A program made the translations under genes and the position numbers. DNA of 64,000 nucleotides from an uncultured Flavobacteriaceae bacterium (GTDB taxonomy: Bacteria > Bacteroidota > Bacteroidia > Flavobacteriales > Flavobacteriaceae): the NCBI GenBank assembly GCA_934675205.1, contig CAKUPQ010000001.1:686497-750496 (forward strand), written 5' to 3'. Below, piece by piece: positions 624-41,318 of this stretch. Below the pieces are notes generated by a model that did not search any database, was not told the DNA's origin, and worked only from the letters and a program-made list of their open reading frames with translations. Each line of letters opens with the position of its first letter. Within the stretch, counting starts at the first letter, position 1.

Positions 624-1307
624 ATGGAAGAACAAAACCAGTACCAACTCGGAAAAATTTTACTCATTGACAAACCTTTGACTTGGAGTTCGTTTCAGGC
701 TGTCAATAAGATAAAATACACCTTAAAACGAAAATACAGTCTTCCGAAATCCTTTAAAATCGGACACGCAGGAACACTTGACCCTCTTGCTACGGGACTT
801 TTGATTATCTGTACCGGAAAATTCACTAAAAAAATTTCCGAATTACAGGGAATGATTAAAGAATATACCGGAACAATTACTCTTGGAGCAACCACTCCGT
901 CTTATGATTTGGAAACCGAAGTTGATAAAACCTATCCAACCGAGCATATTACAGAAGATTTAATCCGAGAAACCACAAAGCAATTCATCGGAGAAATTGA
1001 CCAAAAACCACCTGTTTTTTCGGCTATCAAAAAAGACGGAAAACGATTGTACGAACACGCACGAGCTGGAGAAGAAGTCGAAATTCAATCCCGAAAAGTT
1101 AGTATTTACGAATTTGAAATCACCCGAATTGCACCTCCCGAAATTGATTTTAGAGTAGTGTGTAGCAAAGGGACGTATATTCGTTCTCTCGCTTATGATT
1201 TCGGAAAAGCTCTCAATTCAGGAGCATATTTATCCGCTTTACGAAGAACCAAAATCGGAGATTTTTCGATTGAAGATGCTGTAAAGATTGAAGAGTTTGA
1301 GGGATAG
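624..1307 (+). CDS. truB: tRNA pseudouridine-55 synthase TruB
   Basis: TruB converts U55 in the tRNA T-loop to pseudouridine. The catalytic motif GHAGTLDPLATG is present with the nucleophilic aspartate at about residue 53, followed by the family motifs YTGTITLGATTPSYDLE and CSKGTYIRSLAYDFG. At about 227 residues it is the short form that lacks the C-terminal PUA domain of the enterobacterial enzyme, usual in Bacteroidota. I chose the ATG at 624; an in-frame TTG at 615 is also open. The gap before it is built of ATTCGTAATT repeats. Confidence 0.95.
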   Translation: MEEQNQYQLGKILLIDKPLTWSSFQAVNKIKYTLKRKYSLPKSFKIGHAGTLDPLATGLLIICTGKFTKKISELQGMIKEYTGTITLGATTPSYDLETEVDKTYPTEHITEDLIRETTKQFIGEIDQKPPVFSAIKKDGKRLYEHARAGEEVEIQSRKVSIYEFEITRIAPPEIDFRVVCSKGTYIRSLAYDFGKALNSGAYLSALRRTKIGDFSIEDAVKIEEFEG

Positions 1308-1342
1308 CACAATTTCGTTTCTAAAAAACCAAAAATTCTTTA

Positions 1343-1350
1343 TACTTTTG
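1343..1350 (+). promoter_or_regulatory. -7 promoter element TACTTTTG upstream of bifunctional nuclease
   Basis: TACTTTTG matches the Bacteroidota -7 consensus TAnnTTTG and lies 24 bases before the ATG at 1375. I see no clear TTG at the expected upstream spacing, so this is a half-site only. Confidence 0.45.
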
Positions 1351-1374
1351 TGAGATTGAAGATTTTGATTTAAA

Positions 1375-1986
1375 ATGAGTTTAGTAAAACTGTCTATAAA
1401 AGGGATTTCGTACAGCCAGACACAAAACGGAGCTTACGCTTTGATTCTGAATGAGGTTGATGGAGAGAGAAAGTTACCGATTGTGATTGGAGCTTTTGAG
1501 GCACAATCGATTGCTATTGCTTTGGAGAAAGAGATAAAACCTCCGAGACCACTTACACACGATTTGTTTAAAAATTTTGCGGATAGATTCGATATTGTCG
1601 TAAAACAGGTCATCATTCACAAGTTGGTTGACGGAATTTTCTATTCGAGTATTATTTGCGAACGGGACAGAATCGAGGAAATCATTGATGCTCGTACTTC
1701 TGATGCGATTGCGTTGGCTTTGCGTTTTGAAGCACCGATTTTTACGTACAAAAACATTTTGGACAAAGCGGGAATTTATCTTCAGGTAAATCCTTTTGAG
1801 CCTGAACAAAAAGAAGACGACCCTTTGGATTTGACAGAGGTACAGAGCAATCCTGTAAGTGCCGAAATGACCTATACCAACCATACGACAGAAGAATTAT
1901 ACGAGCTTTTGGAACTTGCTGTAAACAGTGAAGATTACGAAAAAGCAGTAAAAATCAGAGATGAAATATCTCGTAGAGAAAAATAA
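1375..1986 (+). CDS. bifunctional nuclease family protein (DUF151) with C-terminal UVR motif
   Basis: The N-terminal ~135 residues form a DUF151/bifunctional nuclease domain: KLSIKGISYSQTQNGAYALI, then RKLPIVIGAFEAQSIAIALE and RTSDAIALALRFEAPIFTY. The C-terminus (about 168-203: TTEELYELLELAVNSEDYEK, then AVKIRDEISRREK) is a UvrB/UvrC-type helical interaction motif. This DUF151+UVR architecture is the standard Bacteroidota form. The biochemical role here is inferred; family members have reported nuclease activity and stress roles. The stop TAA (1984-1986) overlaps the first base or two of the RNA element that follows. Confidence 0.85.
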   Translation: MSLVKLSIKGISYSQTQNGAYALILNEVDGERKLPIVIGAFEAQSIAIALEKEIKPPRPLTHDLFKNFADRFDIVVKQVIIHKLVDGIFYSSIICERDRIEEIIDARTSDAIALALRFEAPIFTYKNILDKAGIYLQVNPFEPEQKEDDPLDLTEVQSNPVSAEMTYTNHTTEELYELLELAVNSEDYEKAVKIRDEISRREK

Positions 1987-2080
1987 TGAAATGCCCAAAC
2001 ACAAAGGGTTTTTGAACTCGTGAGAGTATGGTTGCGGGCATTCCGTCTGACCGATAAAAGCAAATAAAGATAAACAGATG
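1985..2080 (+). promoter_or_regulatory. structured leader element, copy 1 (candidate start-codon-sequestering RNA)
   Basis: Directly visible: a 7-bp stem AATGCCC (1990-1996)/GGGCATT (2036-2042) encloses a hairpin ACTC-GTGA-GAGT (about 2016-2027). It is followed by CGTCTG (2044-2049) and ACCGATAAAA. CGTCTG is complementary, with one G-U pair, to CAGATG (2075-2080), which contains the start codon of the next gene, across a 25-base loop. A second copy with the same plan lies before meaB at 31635-31771. I do not recognise the class. A short reading frame through the element (M-V-A-G-I-P-S-D-R-stop from 2028) is an alternative explanation for part of the conservation. Confidence 0.6.
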
Positions 2081-2293
2081 AAACATCTTTTTCTTGGAAA
2101 TAATTGGATAAAAACAGGACTAAAATTCGGATTCCTGATGTTTCTGATAGTAGGAATTGCCTTTGCTGTTTTGCAGGGAAAAATGTTGTCGTGGCTTTAT
2201 CTTGGAATAAATTTCGTAATAATGATGCTCGGAGGTTTGGTTTACGGACTTCTGATGAAAATATATTTTACATTGACCAGCAAAAGAAAATAG
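2078..2293 (+). CDS. small two-helix membrane protein, unknown function
   Basis: 71 residues starting MKHLFLGNNW, with two hydrophobic segments at about residues 15-33 (KFGFLMFLIVGIAFAVL) and 38-63 (WLYLGINFVIMMLGGLVYGLL), then a short basic tail (TSKRK). I do not recognise a family. An overlapping frame (2104-2319) is open too, but its product is not hydrophobic or protein-like. The start codon is the last three bases of the CAGATG strand of the structured leader element, so its translation may be controlled by RNA folding. It precedes thyA by 32 bases. Confidence 0.6.
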   Translation: MKHLFLGNNWIKTGLKFGFLMFLIVGIAFAVLQGKMLSWLYLGINFVIMMLGGLVYGLLMKIYFTLTSKRK

Positions 2294-14122: not shown

Positions 14123-14196
14123 TAGCGAAGACGGGAGTTGAACCCGTGACCTCAGGGTTATGAATCCTGCGCTCTAACCGACTGAGCTACCTCGCC
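14123..14196 (-). tRNA. tRNA-Met (anticodon CAT), elongator type
   Basis: 74 bases on the minus strand. The acceptor pairs GGCGAGG with CTTCGCT (two G-U pairs), the D-arm is GCTCAGTCGGTTAGAGC, and the anticodon loop is TTCATAA with anticodon CAT. The T-arm ACGGG-TTCAACT-CCCGT is followed by discriminator A, and CCA is not encoded. The first base pairs, so it is not initiator-like. A tRNA-Ile with a modified CAT anticodon cannot be fully excluded from sequence alone. Confidence 0.88.
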
Positions 14197-30694: not shown

Positions 30695-31621
30695 ATGATA
30701 CACGCTTTGAATATGGTTTGGAATCCGTCCGAGGGGATAGATTTAGGGTTTTTTACGATACGATTTTATGCTGTAATGTGGATTTTGGCATTCGCATTAG
30801 GATATTATGTAATGAAAAAAATCTACATTCGTGAAAACGAATCAATGGAAAATTTAGATTCGCTTTTCTTTTACACATTTATTGCTACAATTTTTGGTGC
30901 AAGATTAGGACACGTAATTTTCTACCAACCCGAACTGTTCAAAGAAGATTTTTTAAGTGTTTTTCTTCCGATACGAACCAATCCGAGTTTTGAATTTACA
31001 GGTTTTGCGGGATTGGCTTCTCACGGAGCCGCTATCGGAATCATTATTGCAATGATTTATTACAGCCGAAAAGTCATCAAAAAACCGATTCTTTGGGTGT
31101 TGGACAGAGTGGTAATTCCCATTTCGTTAGGAGCAATTTTTGTTCGTTTCGGAAATTTTATGAACTCGGAAATTCTCGGAAAAGCTACTGATTCGTCAAT
31201 AGGGATAAAGTTCGTTCAGGACGAATACAACAAATACGAAATAACAAGGTTAACGGGAATTGAAAACTACAAAGAGGCTTACAAAGAGGTAATCGTAAAC
31301 CCTGAATTTGCTCCTCTTATCGAAAATATTACTCCCAAACATCCAACCCAGCTTTATGAGGCTTTCGGTTATGTGATTGTTTTTTCGATACTGCTCTTTT
31401 TGTATTGGAAAACCAATGCACGATTAAAGCAAGGATTTTTGTTCGGAATGTTTTTGGTTTTGCTTTGGTCGGTTCGTTTTTTTGCCGAATTCATCAAAGA
31501 AAGTCAGGGAGGTTTTGAGGGTGCAAATCCGATTCTTTCCACAGGGCAATGGTTGAGTATTCCGTTTATTCTTATAGGTGTTTATCTGATTTACAGGAGT
31601 AGAAATGCTGTTGTTGCTTAA
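30695..31621 (+). CDS. lgt: prolipoprotein diacylglyceryl transferase Lgt
   Basis: 308 residues, seven predicted membrane helices. Family motifs: GARLGHVIFYQPELF near 70-84, the Lgt signature region IFVRFGNFMNSEILGKATDS near 148-167 and HPTQLYEAFGYVIVF near 214-228. It transfers the diacylglyceryl group to lipobox cysteines, the first lipoprotein step; gldH and the OmpA-like protein here are likely substrates. The stop is 13 bases before the second structured leader element. Confidence 0.95.
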   Translation: MIHALNMVWNPSEGIDLGFFTIRFYAVMWILAFALGYYVMKKIYIRENESMENLDSLFFYTFIATIFGARLGHVIFYQPELFKEDFLSVFLPIRTNPSFEFTGFAGLASHGAAIGIIIAMIYYSRKVIKKPILWVLDRVVIPISLGAIFVRFGNFMNSEILGKATDSSIGIKFVQDEYNKYEITRLTGIENYKEAYKEVIVNPEFAPLIENITPKHPTQLYEAFGYVIVFSILLFLYWKTNARLKQGFLFGMFLVLLWSVRFFAEFIKESQGGFEGANPILSTGQWLSIPFILIGVYLIYRSRNAVVA

Positions 31622-31634
31622 AAAAGTTTCTTAT

Positions 31635-31771
31635 GAAATGAGCCGTAACAATAAAGTCGATACCAATCGAAACCGAAGGTTAAACGACTCCATAAAAAAT
31701 AAAAAATGGAGTTAAATGTTGAGTGGCTCATTGCATCTGACCGCTAAAAATCAATGAAAAAAGAACAGATG
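31635..31771 (+). promoter_or_regulatory. structured leader element, copy 2, upstream of meaB
   Basis: AATGAGCC (31637-31644) pairs perfectly with GGCTCATT (31725-31732). Inside are hairpins CGAT-ACCA-ATCG, AACC-GAA-GGTT and ACTCCAT/ATGGAGT, plus AGTCG/CGACT, which overlaps the last and is therefore an alternative fold. CATCTG (31734-31739) is exactly complementary to CAGATG (31766-31771), which contains a meaB start codon, across a 26-base loop. The GCATCTGACCGCTAAAA block and the sequence up to GATGAAAC match copy 1 at 1985-2080. No cobalamin-riboswitch B12 box is visible, although meaB is cobalamin-linked. Confidence 0.6.
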
Positions 31772-32851
31772 AAACGGACAAACAAAAAATCTGCATTAAG
31801 TGAAGTTGACGGAATTTCGGATATTGAAATTGTCAGCAAATCTTCTGTGGAGCGAGTGAATCGTTTCAGGCAAAAGCAACCTACTCCAAAAGAGCTTATC
31901 AGCTCGATTATCAAAGGAGATAAAATTGCTTTGAGTCGGGCTATTACCCTTGTCGAAAGCACCAATCCCGAACATTCCGAAAAAGCAACCGAAGTGATAA
32001 ATGGTTGTTTGCCTTATGCGAATAAATCTATCCGAATCGGAATTACCGGAGTTCCGGGAGTCGGGAAAAGTACGTTTATTGAGGCTTTCGGAAAACATCT
32101 GACCTCAATCGGAAAAAAAGTGGCTGTTTTGGCTATTGACCCGAGCAGTACGATTTCGCACGGAAGTATTTTGGGAGATAAAACCCGAATGGAAGAGCTT
32201 GTAAAAGATGAAAATGCGTATATCAGACCCTCTGCATCGGGAGAGACTTTGGGTGGGGTAGCAAGGAAAACGAGGGAATCCATTATTCTGTGTGAGGCTT
32301 GTGGTTTTGATGTGGTTATTATCGAAACCGTTGGAGTCGGACAAAGTGAAACGGCTGTTCACTCAATGGTCGATTTCTTTTTACTGTTGAAAATTTCGGG
32401 AGCAGGAGATGAATTGCAAGGAATCAAAAGGGGAATTATGGAAATGGCAGATGCCATTGTCATCAACAAAGCAGACGGAGATAATATCAAAAAAGCTAAA
32501 TCAGCCAAAGTAGAGTTTAATCGGGCTTTGCATTTGTTCCCTCCCAAAAAATCGGGCTGGAATCCGAAAGTAACCACTTGTAGCAGTTATACCAAAGACG
32601 GAATTCCTGAAGTTTGGGATATTATCAATAACTATTTTATTTTAACTCAAGAAAACGGATATTTCCAAAACAAACGAAAACAGCAAAATCAATATTGGTT
32701 TCTAGAAACCATCGAATCGCAACTCAAAATGTGGTTTTATCAAAATGAAAAGATAAAAAACACTCTTGAAGATTTCAAAAAACAGGTCGAATCAAACGAA
32801 ATTTCGCCTTTTACGGCAGCACAAGAACTACTTAAACTATTTAAAATCTGA
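31769..32851 (+). CDS. meaB: methylmalonyl-CoA mutase-associated GTPase MeaB
   Basis: About 360 residues. G1/Walker A GVPGVGKSTFIEAFGKHL is near residue 97, followed by AVLAIDPSSTISHGSILGDK, the ETVGVGQSE switch region and the base-specificity motif VINKADGDN near 230. MeaB/ArgK GTPases protect and reload adenosylcobalamin-dependent methylmalonyl-CoA mutase; the mutase genes are not in the window. Two ATGs are possible, 31754 and 31769. I prefer 31769 because it is the one aligned with the start codon in the homologous leader element at 2078. The 31754 codon would fall in the loop. Confidence 0.9.
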   Translation: MKRTNKKSALSEVDGISDIEIVSKSSVERVNRFRQKQPTPKELISSIIKGDKIALSRAITLVESTNPEHSEKATEVINGCLPYANKSIRIGITGVPGVGKSTFIEAFGKHLTSIGKKVAVLAIDPSSTISHGSILGDKTRMEELVKDENAYIRPSASGETLGGVARKTRESIILCEACGFDVVIIETVGVGQSETAVHSMVDFFLLLKISGAGDELQGIKRGIMEMADAIVINKADGDNIKKAKSAKVEFNRALHLFPPKKSGWNPKVTTCSSYTKDGIPEVWDIINNYFILTQENGYFQNKRKQQNQYWFLETIESQLKMWFYQNEKIKNTLEDFKKQVESNEISPFTAAQELLKLFKI

Positions 32852-41236: not shown

Positions 41237-41318
41237 GCGGGTGTGGTGAAATTGGTAGACACGCCAGACTTAGGATCTGGTGCCGCAAGGTGTGTAGGTT
41301 CGAGTCCTATCACCCGCA
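41237..41318 (+). tRNA. tRNA-Leu (anticodon TAG)
   Basis: 82 bases. Acceptor GCGGGTG/CACCCGC with discriminator A, D-arm TGGTGAAATTGGTAGACACG, anticodon stem CCAGA/TCTGG with loop CTTAGGA and anticodon TAG. The class II variable arm is TGCCGCAAGGTGT, and the T-arm is TAGG-TTCGAGT-CCTA with flanking bases. CCA is not encoded. It reads CUA/CUN leucine codons. Confidence 0.97.

Follow-up and report, generated by a model that had tools for sequence, protein, structure and literature searches.

A short structured repeat ending at ATGAAA start codons in Flavobacteriaceae, probably a small non-autonomous mobile element

Small dispersed repeats as such are already known. In IS200/IS605 elements, as described in excerpted text of PMC6006769, a guide sequence situated immediately 5′ of the foot of the hairpin interacts at the left end with the flanking target and, in a similar way, at the right end with the terminal bases. 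According to the same excerpt, the REP transposases of Bacteroidetes include a subclass 2.6 that is characterized by atypical flanking structures, copies of which are found elsewhere in the genome. Among structured motifs, Flavo-1 RNA (RF01705) is widespread in Flavobacteriaceae with an unclear role (PMC9723704, as excerpted), and for translation in F. johnsoniae secondary structure has a tuning role and an A at position −3 is a positive determinant (PMC6847099, as excerpted).

The element considered here occurs twice in the window (the whole 64-kb stretch of DNA that was analysed), and the pair probably represents copies of a small non-autonomous mobile repeat of about 90 nt, with ATGAAA as the target, which becomes the 5′ leader of the gene that it precedes. 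With REP/RAYT (TnpAREP) systems it shares the short length, the many copies per genome, the location mostly outside genes and a hairpin the foot of which bears a guide-like sequence (a putative guide), and it would presumably be moved in trans as they are. Unlike canonical REPs, it has no GT[AG]G (GTAG-type) guide at the hairpin foot, a guide that is lacking also from subclass 2.6 as described in the excerpt of PMC6006769, and, unlike REP/RAYT, it shows a 6-nt pairing across its border, is inserted at ATGAAA start codons and does not flank RAYT or the other Y1 genes looked at. Read on the antisense strand, it resembles the IS200/IS605 ends in the one-sided target, the putative guide 5′ of the hairpin foot, the target-like end after the hairpin and the insertion beside a fixed short target (ATGAAA at 111 of 114 right borders), but one hairpin would serve both ends of the element. 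It is small, non-autonomous and multi-copy as MITEs are, although its ends (ATGAAA... and ...CAG) are not mutual inverted repeats as in TIR MITEs. In common with riboswitches and other 5′ cis-regulatory RNAs, it is located in 5′ leaders and has two alternative predicted pairings in the region of the start codon; unlike riboswitches, it is precisely present or absent between sister genomes, and the downstream genes have no common function.

Other known systems were considered. The IS982-derived MITE of Cardinium (PMC9769881) and Rfp18 (PMC9723704) are, as far as the excerpted texts describe them, something else. The resemblance to Flavo-1 is that of another structured motif widespread in the family; identity was rejected, with no Flavo-1 match over the element and one beside a single copy (at locus L144, positions 1657-1744, 69.7 bits, about 60 nt from the element copy). 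At gathering score, no Rfam family was found over the element in the whole window, where the sole matches are two tRNA genes (14123-14196 on the minus strand and 41237-41318 on the plus strand); at E ≤ 10 the best matches of both copies were far below gathering, and at E ≤ 1 the search of 20 further loci returned two matches, both outside the element. The sequence-only reading, which matched the pair to no riboswitch class and proposed a comparison with Rfam, is borne out in this respect. In the open-licence PMC papers searched, no description was found of a repeat that inserts at a translation start and pairs with the start codon of its host gene, so that the element appears to be a variant of the small non-autonomous mobile repeats for which no earlier description was found.

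Copy 1 (92 nt, 1986..2077, plus strand, as are all the features of the two copies) extends from a left ATGAAA (1986..1991) to the base preceding the start codon of a 71-aa ORF (2078..2293, plus strand), which in turn precedes thymidylate synthase. The gene upstream (1375..1986, plus strand) encodes a bifunctional nuclease (BFN) domain and a UVR motif, and the left ATGAAA overlaps its TAA stop (1984-1986): in the resulting TAATG, the left ATG shares its A with the stop codon. The two strands of hairpin 1, recognized from the sequence and from covariation in other copies, are AATGCCC (1990..1996) and GGGCATT (2036..2042). They are followed by the guide-like hexamer CGTCTG (2044..2049), the 5′ strand of hairpin 2, the 3′ strand of which, CAGATG (2075..2080), includes the start codon (2078-2080). 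Copy 2 (136 nt, 31633..31768) has a longer interior with an additional predicted hairpin. Its left ATGAAA (31633..31638) lies 11 nt past the stop of lgt (30695..31621, plus strand), hairpin 1 is formed by AATGAGCC (31637..31644) and GGCTCATT (31725..31732), again from the sequence and covariation in other copies, and hairpin 2 by the guide-like CATCTG (31734..31739) and CAGATG (31766..31771), which includes the start codon (31769-31771) of meaB (31769..32851, plus strand; an additional in-frame ATG is at 31754).

Both sequences are as first read by eye, with spacers of 39 and 80 nt between the stem strands, an ACTC/GAGT hairpin in copy 1 (2016-2019/2024-2027) and the shared 3′ part TCTGACCG.TAAAA...AACAGATGAAAC, and the element does lie in 5′ leaders. 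Two details had to be revised. The position directly after a stop codon holds for copy 1, which overlaps it, but not for copy 2, which starts 11 nt after the lgt stop. As to the extent, the closing stem corresponds to hairpin 1, but the unit continues as far as the start codon and has another covarying helix, missed earlier: both copies fold a second hairpin, of CGTCTG or CATCTG with CAGATG, that encloses the start codon and, because this CAGATG contains the ATG, the conserved unit ends at the start codon of the gene and not at the A-rich run. The interpretation of the left ATG as the start of an upstream ORF was rejected since, by eye, the frames of the two window copies differ greatly (M-K-stop in copy 2, nine codons in copy 1).

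With a covariance model made from 19 copies, the window copies score 58.3 and 56.0 bits, values that are high by construction because both are among the 19. No third copy was found in the 64-kb window with this model, the next best place scoring 14.5 bits (E 0.39). The folding of copy 1 is unremarkable (z −0.99; 32 of 200 shuffles equally good) and that of copy 2 is strong (z −5.35; 0 of 200). Chance similarity of two leaders might find some comfort in a window with only two copies, one of which folds no better than its shuffles; against it, a three-copy model gave 13 matches in the genome G138, including one from which the model had been built, and four in its sister G307 (the only other member of the G138 genus in the sample), and the left ends and stems outside the model are also present there. 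Since further copies exist elsewhere, the likeness of the two window copies is beyond chance, and a reading by coincidence, with a practically negligible probability, is refuted.

Indeed, the element is common in what is a large family of bacteria from the sea and from fresh water. The exact pattern derived from the shared 3′ part matched 1 of the 299 genomes of one family-level group, at a locus (L081) that has the same architecture and precedes a TPR gene. The 19-copy model gave 25 matches at E ≤ 0.05 (the weakest with E 0.03) as compared with 17 for the three-copy model in the two sister genomes, and it detected the element in 198 of 397 sampled genomes of probable Flavobacteriaceae (E ≤ 1e-3), for which copy numbers are lower bounds because stricter filters were applied and 16 candidates per genome were considered. 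At the phylum level, 30 of 296 genomes carry it (E ≤ 1e-4), 8 of which are also in the family sample, and the other 22 may lie inside or outside the family. Matches per genome reach 35 in G133, 28 in G228 and 54 in G069, the E-values of the covariance model being rough. Thus, what had been presented as a two-copy leader RNA family, with homologs to be sought in other genomes, is indeed a family, but its copy number per genome ranges from one to tens. The sampled family is probably Flavobacteriaceae, because the best named relatives of a G138 protein are from Subsaxibacter, Aquaticitalea, Gelidibacter, Psychroserpens and Winogradskyella, genera of that family. The window DNA is, to judge from one protein, of the same kind: the product of the 71-aa ORF has no match in Pfam or NCBIfam and 27 database matches, including the window's own protein, and a relative that is 89% identical is named from a Flavobacteriaceae MAG. 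Partial matches of 27-32 nt were all that phages and plasmids yielded with one copy as the query. Among 80 loci with meaB orthologs (1.57 Mb around meaB, mostly from Flavobacterium) none carries the element, and for copy 2 they thus yielded no empty counterpart whose flanks could be aligned.

The anatomy of the element was determined from 114 copies, namely 112 of 114 fetched loci (L120 and L133, which gave no pattern match, were left out) and the two window copies. After correction of left ends and guides, 113 distinct copies were kept, among which L251 has a mis-parsed right end and L138 a mis-assigned left end, and 103 (score ≥ 4.5) entered the stem table. The 5′ part consists of ATGAAA, a variable 5′ strand of hairpin 1, a loop region and a 3′ strand that mostly ends in TT. 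The 3′ part comprises one free base, mostly CATCTG or CATGTG, usually ACC, an A-rich linker and mostly CAG or CAC, followed by the ATGAAA of the gene. The conserved pattern can be written as the near-palindromic hairpin 1 (ATG-A-AA...TT-N), a CATnTG hexamer, the A-rich linker, CAn and then ATG. The median length is 90 nt and the range 71-220 nt by the automatic left end, which leaves no room for a Y1 gene. At the right border, ATGAAA is present in nearly all copies, as given above, and at the left border in 103 of 114 when the end is chosen automatically (103 of 113 once corrected). Although the left end lay outside the covariance model, it scores ≥ 7 in 83 of 113 copies versus 0 of 339 control placements and ≥ 5 in 103 of 113 versus 20 of 339.

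Hairpin 1 exists in several versions (TGCCC/GGGCA, CGCCC/GGGCG, CATCC/GGATG and, with tandem G.A in about 19 of 103 copies, GAGCC/GGCGA), and hairpin 2 is CATCTG/CAGATG or CATGTG/CACATG in 101 of the 113 distinct copies. Covariation was evaluated on 56 of the 113, which were chosen for their length, an exact ATGAAA at the left, a score ≥ 4.5 and a similarity to one another of ≤ 0.88, the window copies being excluded; these criteria favour well-preserved copies. For the two helices together, 93.2% of the cells are paired (80.2% in shuffles), and 111 cells show a double change versus 32.5 ± 7.4 in shuffles, none of 500 shuffles being as high, in a control that ignores relatedness among the copies. 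The number of pairs with any double change is not in excess (7 versus 6.4 in shuffles, 255 of 500 as high). Sliding the partners by one to three columns leaves 22-37% paired, and RNAalifold predicts the same two helices. Covariation of the closing stem, deduced at the outset from two sequences and put forward as a check, is thus found across the other copies. Hairpin 2 is paired in 99.7% of the cells, with base exchange at one pair, that of the variable guide base with its partner (C-G 38, G-C 16 and A-U 1 of 56); CATATG/CATATG and CATTTG/CAAATG pairs were seen by eye in phylum copies. The CATnTG hexamer is able to pair with the start (CAnATG) or, through its CAT, with the left ATG.

Some copies depart from this scheme. 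Five loci of G170 (L140, L195, L198, L199 and L214) have longer elements with an additional internal segment, and copy 2 of the window also has one, of a different sequence. In two of them (L195 and L214), the element precedes a nearly identical 17-aa ORF (MKR.L.NFKN.FTK.NV), possibly a leader peptide or a further repeat. At L273, in the phylum sample, guide and site are, by eye, apparently swapped (CACATG and CATGTG), with GTGAAA as the start context.

Ten element-bearing genes of G138 without a G307 match with the first model were sought in G307 and nine were found, the exception being that of L088. In six of the nine pairs (L082, L091, L094, L096, L097 and L098), the sequences align without a break on either side of the element, which exactly makes up the difference, as a clean insertion directly before the start ATG; in the other three (L084, L092 and L095), the upstream region is too diverged or the start region ambiguous. 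These filled-versus-empty differences, all of them from G138/G307 pairs and none from the two window copies, are compatible with gain or loss alike. Ten of the G138 downstream genes are unrelated (TPR, aldo/keto reductase, glyoxalase, DUF1684, two M23 peptidases, Ribonuc_L-PSP, cytidylyltransferase, FdtA-type and DnaJ), and no association with genes of one pathway was found among them and the two window genes. Tandem copies joined at ATGAAA are present in G207 and G588, and G207 also contains near-identical copies. Location before unrelated genes, tandem arrays and precise empty sites argue for a dispersed mobile repeat, and mobility would account for the empty sites. A riboswitch type, to which the leaders were first compared, is rejected as the sole account because of the empty sites (six of nine pairs) and of the unrelated genes downstream. 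In the proposed mechanism, the element would insert precisely at ATGAAA, its left end being ATGAAA and its right border the gene's own ATGAAA. With ATGAAA at both borders, the gene retains a start codon, while the element becomes its 5′ leader and would be co-transcribed with it.

The preference for gene starts is strong. In 2.28 Mb from six genomes, crude ORF calls assign 401 ATGAAA sites to ORF starts, 561 to intergenic DNA and 2681 to the inside of genes, so that 42% of the copies would be expected at starts if start and intergenic sites were hit equally. Instead, 96 of the 114 copies adjoin the start of an ORF of ≥ 60 aa (binomial p about 1e-20, the copies being non-independent), and copies in this position lie in sense orientation to the gene. 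Of the other 18, two were called before another element, five have an ORF start 7-91 nt further on (including L215, which is by eye followed by another copy, and L139, 19 nt ahead of an ORF taken by eye for rpoN) and 11 have neither. As copies are also found off ORF starts, the target looks like ATGAA(A), and the preference for starts would reflect either insertion or retention, or the enrichment may instead stem from decay of the copies elsewhere or from short genes missed by the crude ORF calls.

Effects on translation can be predicted from folding. The mean unpaired probability of the start AUG is predicted to be 0.19 in 94 copies versus 0.43 in 110 native ATGAAA starts. For the alternative pairings of CAU, the median predicted probabilities at 37 C are 0.58 with the start and 0.30 with the left AUG, and at 20 C 0.35 and 0.38, respectively. 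The base at −3 is C, with T in 3 and G in 1 of the 113 distinct copies. Since this position holds C instead of A, the conserved CAn seems to serve pairing rather than strong initiation. On these predictions, the insert should lower or condition translation of the gene, and the start-codon hairpin may have a regulatory role.

The same data could be taken to indicate a vertically inherited cis-regulatory RNA, in which the start codon is sequestered in hairpin 2 or freed by pairing of CAT with the left ATG in response to a sensed signal. The sense-strand orientation of the copies at ORF starts and their concentration there, the lower predicted accessibility of the start AUG with two alternative pairings, the covarying helix that contains the start codon and a weak asymmetry of G.T over A.C mismatches (see below) would suit it. 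However, it is hard to reconcile with downstream genes that share no function, with the precise empty sites between sister species, with the near-identical copies and tandem arrays of G207, and with the 16 of 114 copies for which neither an adjoining ORF start (≥ 60 aa) nor another element directly downstream was called, so that it is considered very unlikely. A combined scheme is easier to accommodate and, if still on the unlikely side, is to be taken seriously: the insertion would be selfish and the element mobile, but retention would be selected because the start hairpin would tune expression, making of it a portable translation regulator. The 96 copies at ORF starts, well above expectation, and the lower predicted accessibility of the start are in its favour; the C at −3, where A favours initiation in F. 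johnsoniae (PMC6847099, as excerpted), and the possibility that decay elsewhere or missed short genes generate the enrichment weigh against it.

For a mobile repeat, as preferred here, the most likely route is that a folded single strand would be mobilised in trans by a tyrosine HUH (Y1) transposase of the IS200/IS605 or REP type, with the hexamer or its complement as a guide that would locate both cleavage sites. The antisense strand reads TTTCAT, CTG, the T-rich linker, CAGATG, one base, the hairpin and TTTCAT, a layout that fits, by analogy, the IS200/IS605 guide scheme provided that a single hairpin and a single guide act at both ends. Y1_Tnp (PF01797, E ≤ 1e-3) was found in 14 of 20 element-rich versus 6 of 20 element-free genomes (Fisher p 0.026). 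Six element-rich genomes (G138, G118, G141, G149, G296 and G317) are without it at this threshold, and at E ≤ 1 five of them still are, G317 having sub-cutoff matches only. With a REP-type Y1 protein as the query (E ≤ 0.01), matches were obtained in 13 of 24 genomes with the element, among them the genome of the query itself, versus 3 of 20 without it; minus the query's genome, the values are 12 of 23 versus 3 of 20 (p 0.023). No Y1 gene was found flanked by the element among 34 fetched loci, which are a part of the Y1 matches: one has a strong copy within about 3 kb, which precedes a trpF-like gene rather than flanking the transposase, and the palindromes beside that RAYT differ, and two others have chance-level matches (E 0.06-0.08). 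Y1 genes are loosely associated with the element, and no enzyme was tied to it by these searches.

The strand that would be mobilised was approached in two ways. The orientation bias relative to the replication fork that insertion into the lagging-strand template, as in IS200/IS605-type elements, would leave was sought among 33 of the 35 matches of G133, 22 of 28 of G228, 38 of 54 of G069, 8 of 9 of G323, 14 of 18 of G381 and 8 of 9 of G029. It was observed in G133 and G228, was absent in G069, G323 and G029, and for G381 appears when the replichores are set from gene strand (p 0.016) and not from GC skew (0.50). Being mixed, this result is not counted as support. Mismatches at stem pairs 3-6 are G.T in 12 versus A.C in 4 genome events (p 0.08), of which L138 adds one on each side; without it, they are 11 versus 3, and p is 0.06-0.08 across both counts. 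For pairs 3-7, the values are 13 versus 8 (p 0.38). The prevalence of G.T points, if anywhere, to the sense strand or to RNA rather than to the antisense strand. Another alternative is that a site-specific recombinase moves the element as a cassette whose shared core is ATGAAA, or that the element is a retroposed RNA of the SINE type. Both borders and the tandem joints at ATGAAA would be as expected, and the sense-strand asymmetry would suit an RNA intermediate; for retroposition, however, no association was found with RVT_1 (reverse transcriptase), which is present in 8 of 23 element-bearing and 6 of 20 free genomes. This alternative is regarded as unlikely.

A bolder proposal, which is advanced tentatively and is open to doubt, is that the element represents a new class of mobile elements that would move from start codon to start codon, with the hexamer pairing with ATGAAA and the two-state hairpin, of which the host start codon would form one arm, acting as a portable translational switch. 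If the element is indeed an insert, from one to tens of genes would have an insert as their 5′ leader in about half of the sampled genomes of the family, which would bear on gene regulation, on the annotation of start sites and on where single-strand transposases may place their cargo.

Two of the transposase loci have features of their own. At L402 (genome G580), a 222-aa REP-type tyrosine transposase (1078-1746, minus strand; NF047646 below cut-off) is encoded between ORFs that, by eye, resemble the C-terminal part of Cas9 and Cas1, all on one strand. At L179 (G207), a REP-type transposase (1474-2025) lies between sequences that are, by eye, trpF-like and trpB-like, and adjoins its own palindromic GACCTCACAGGTTTT repeats.
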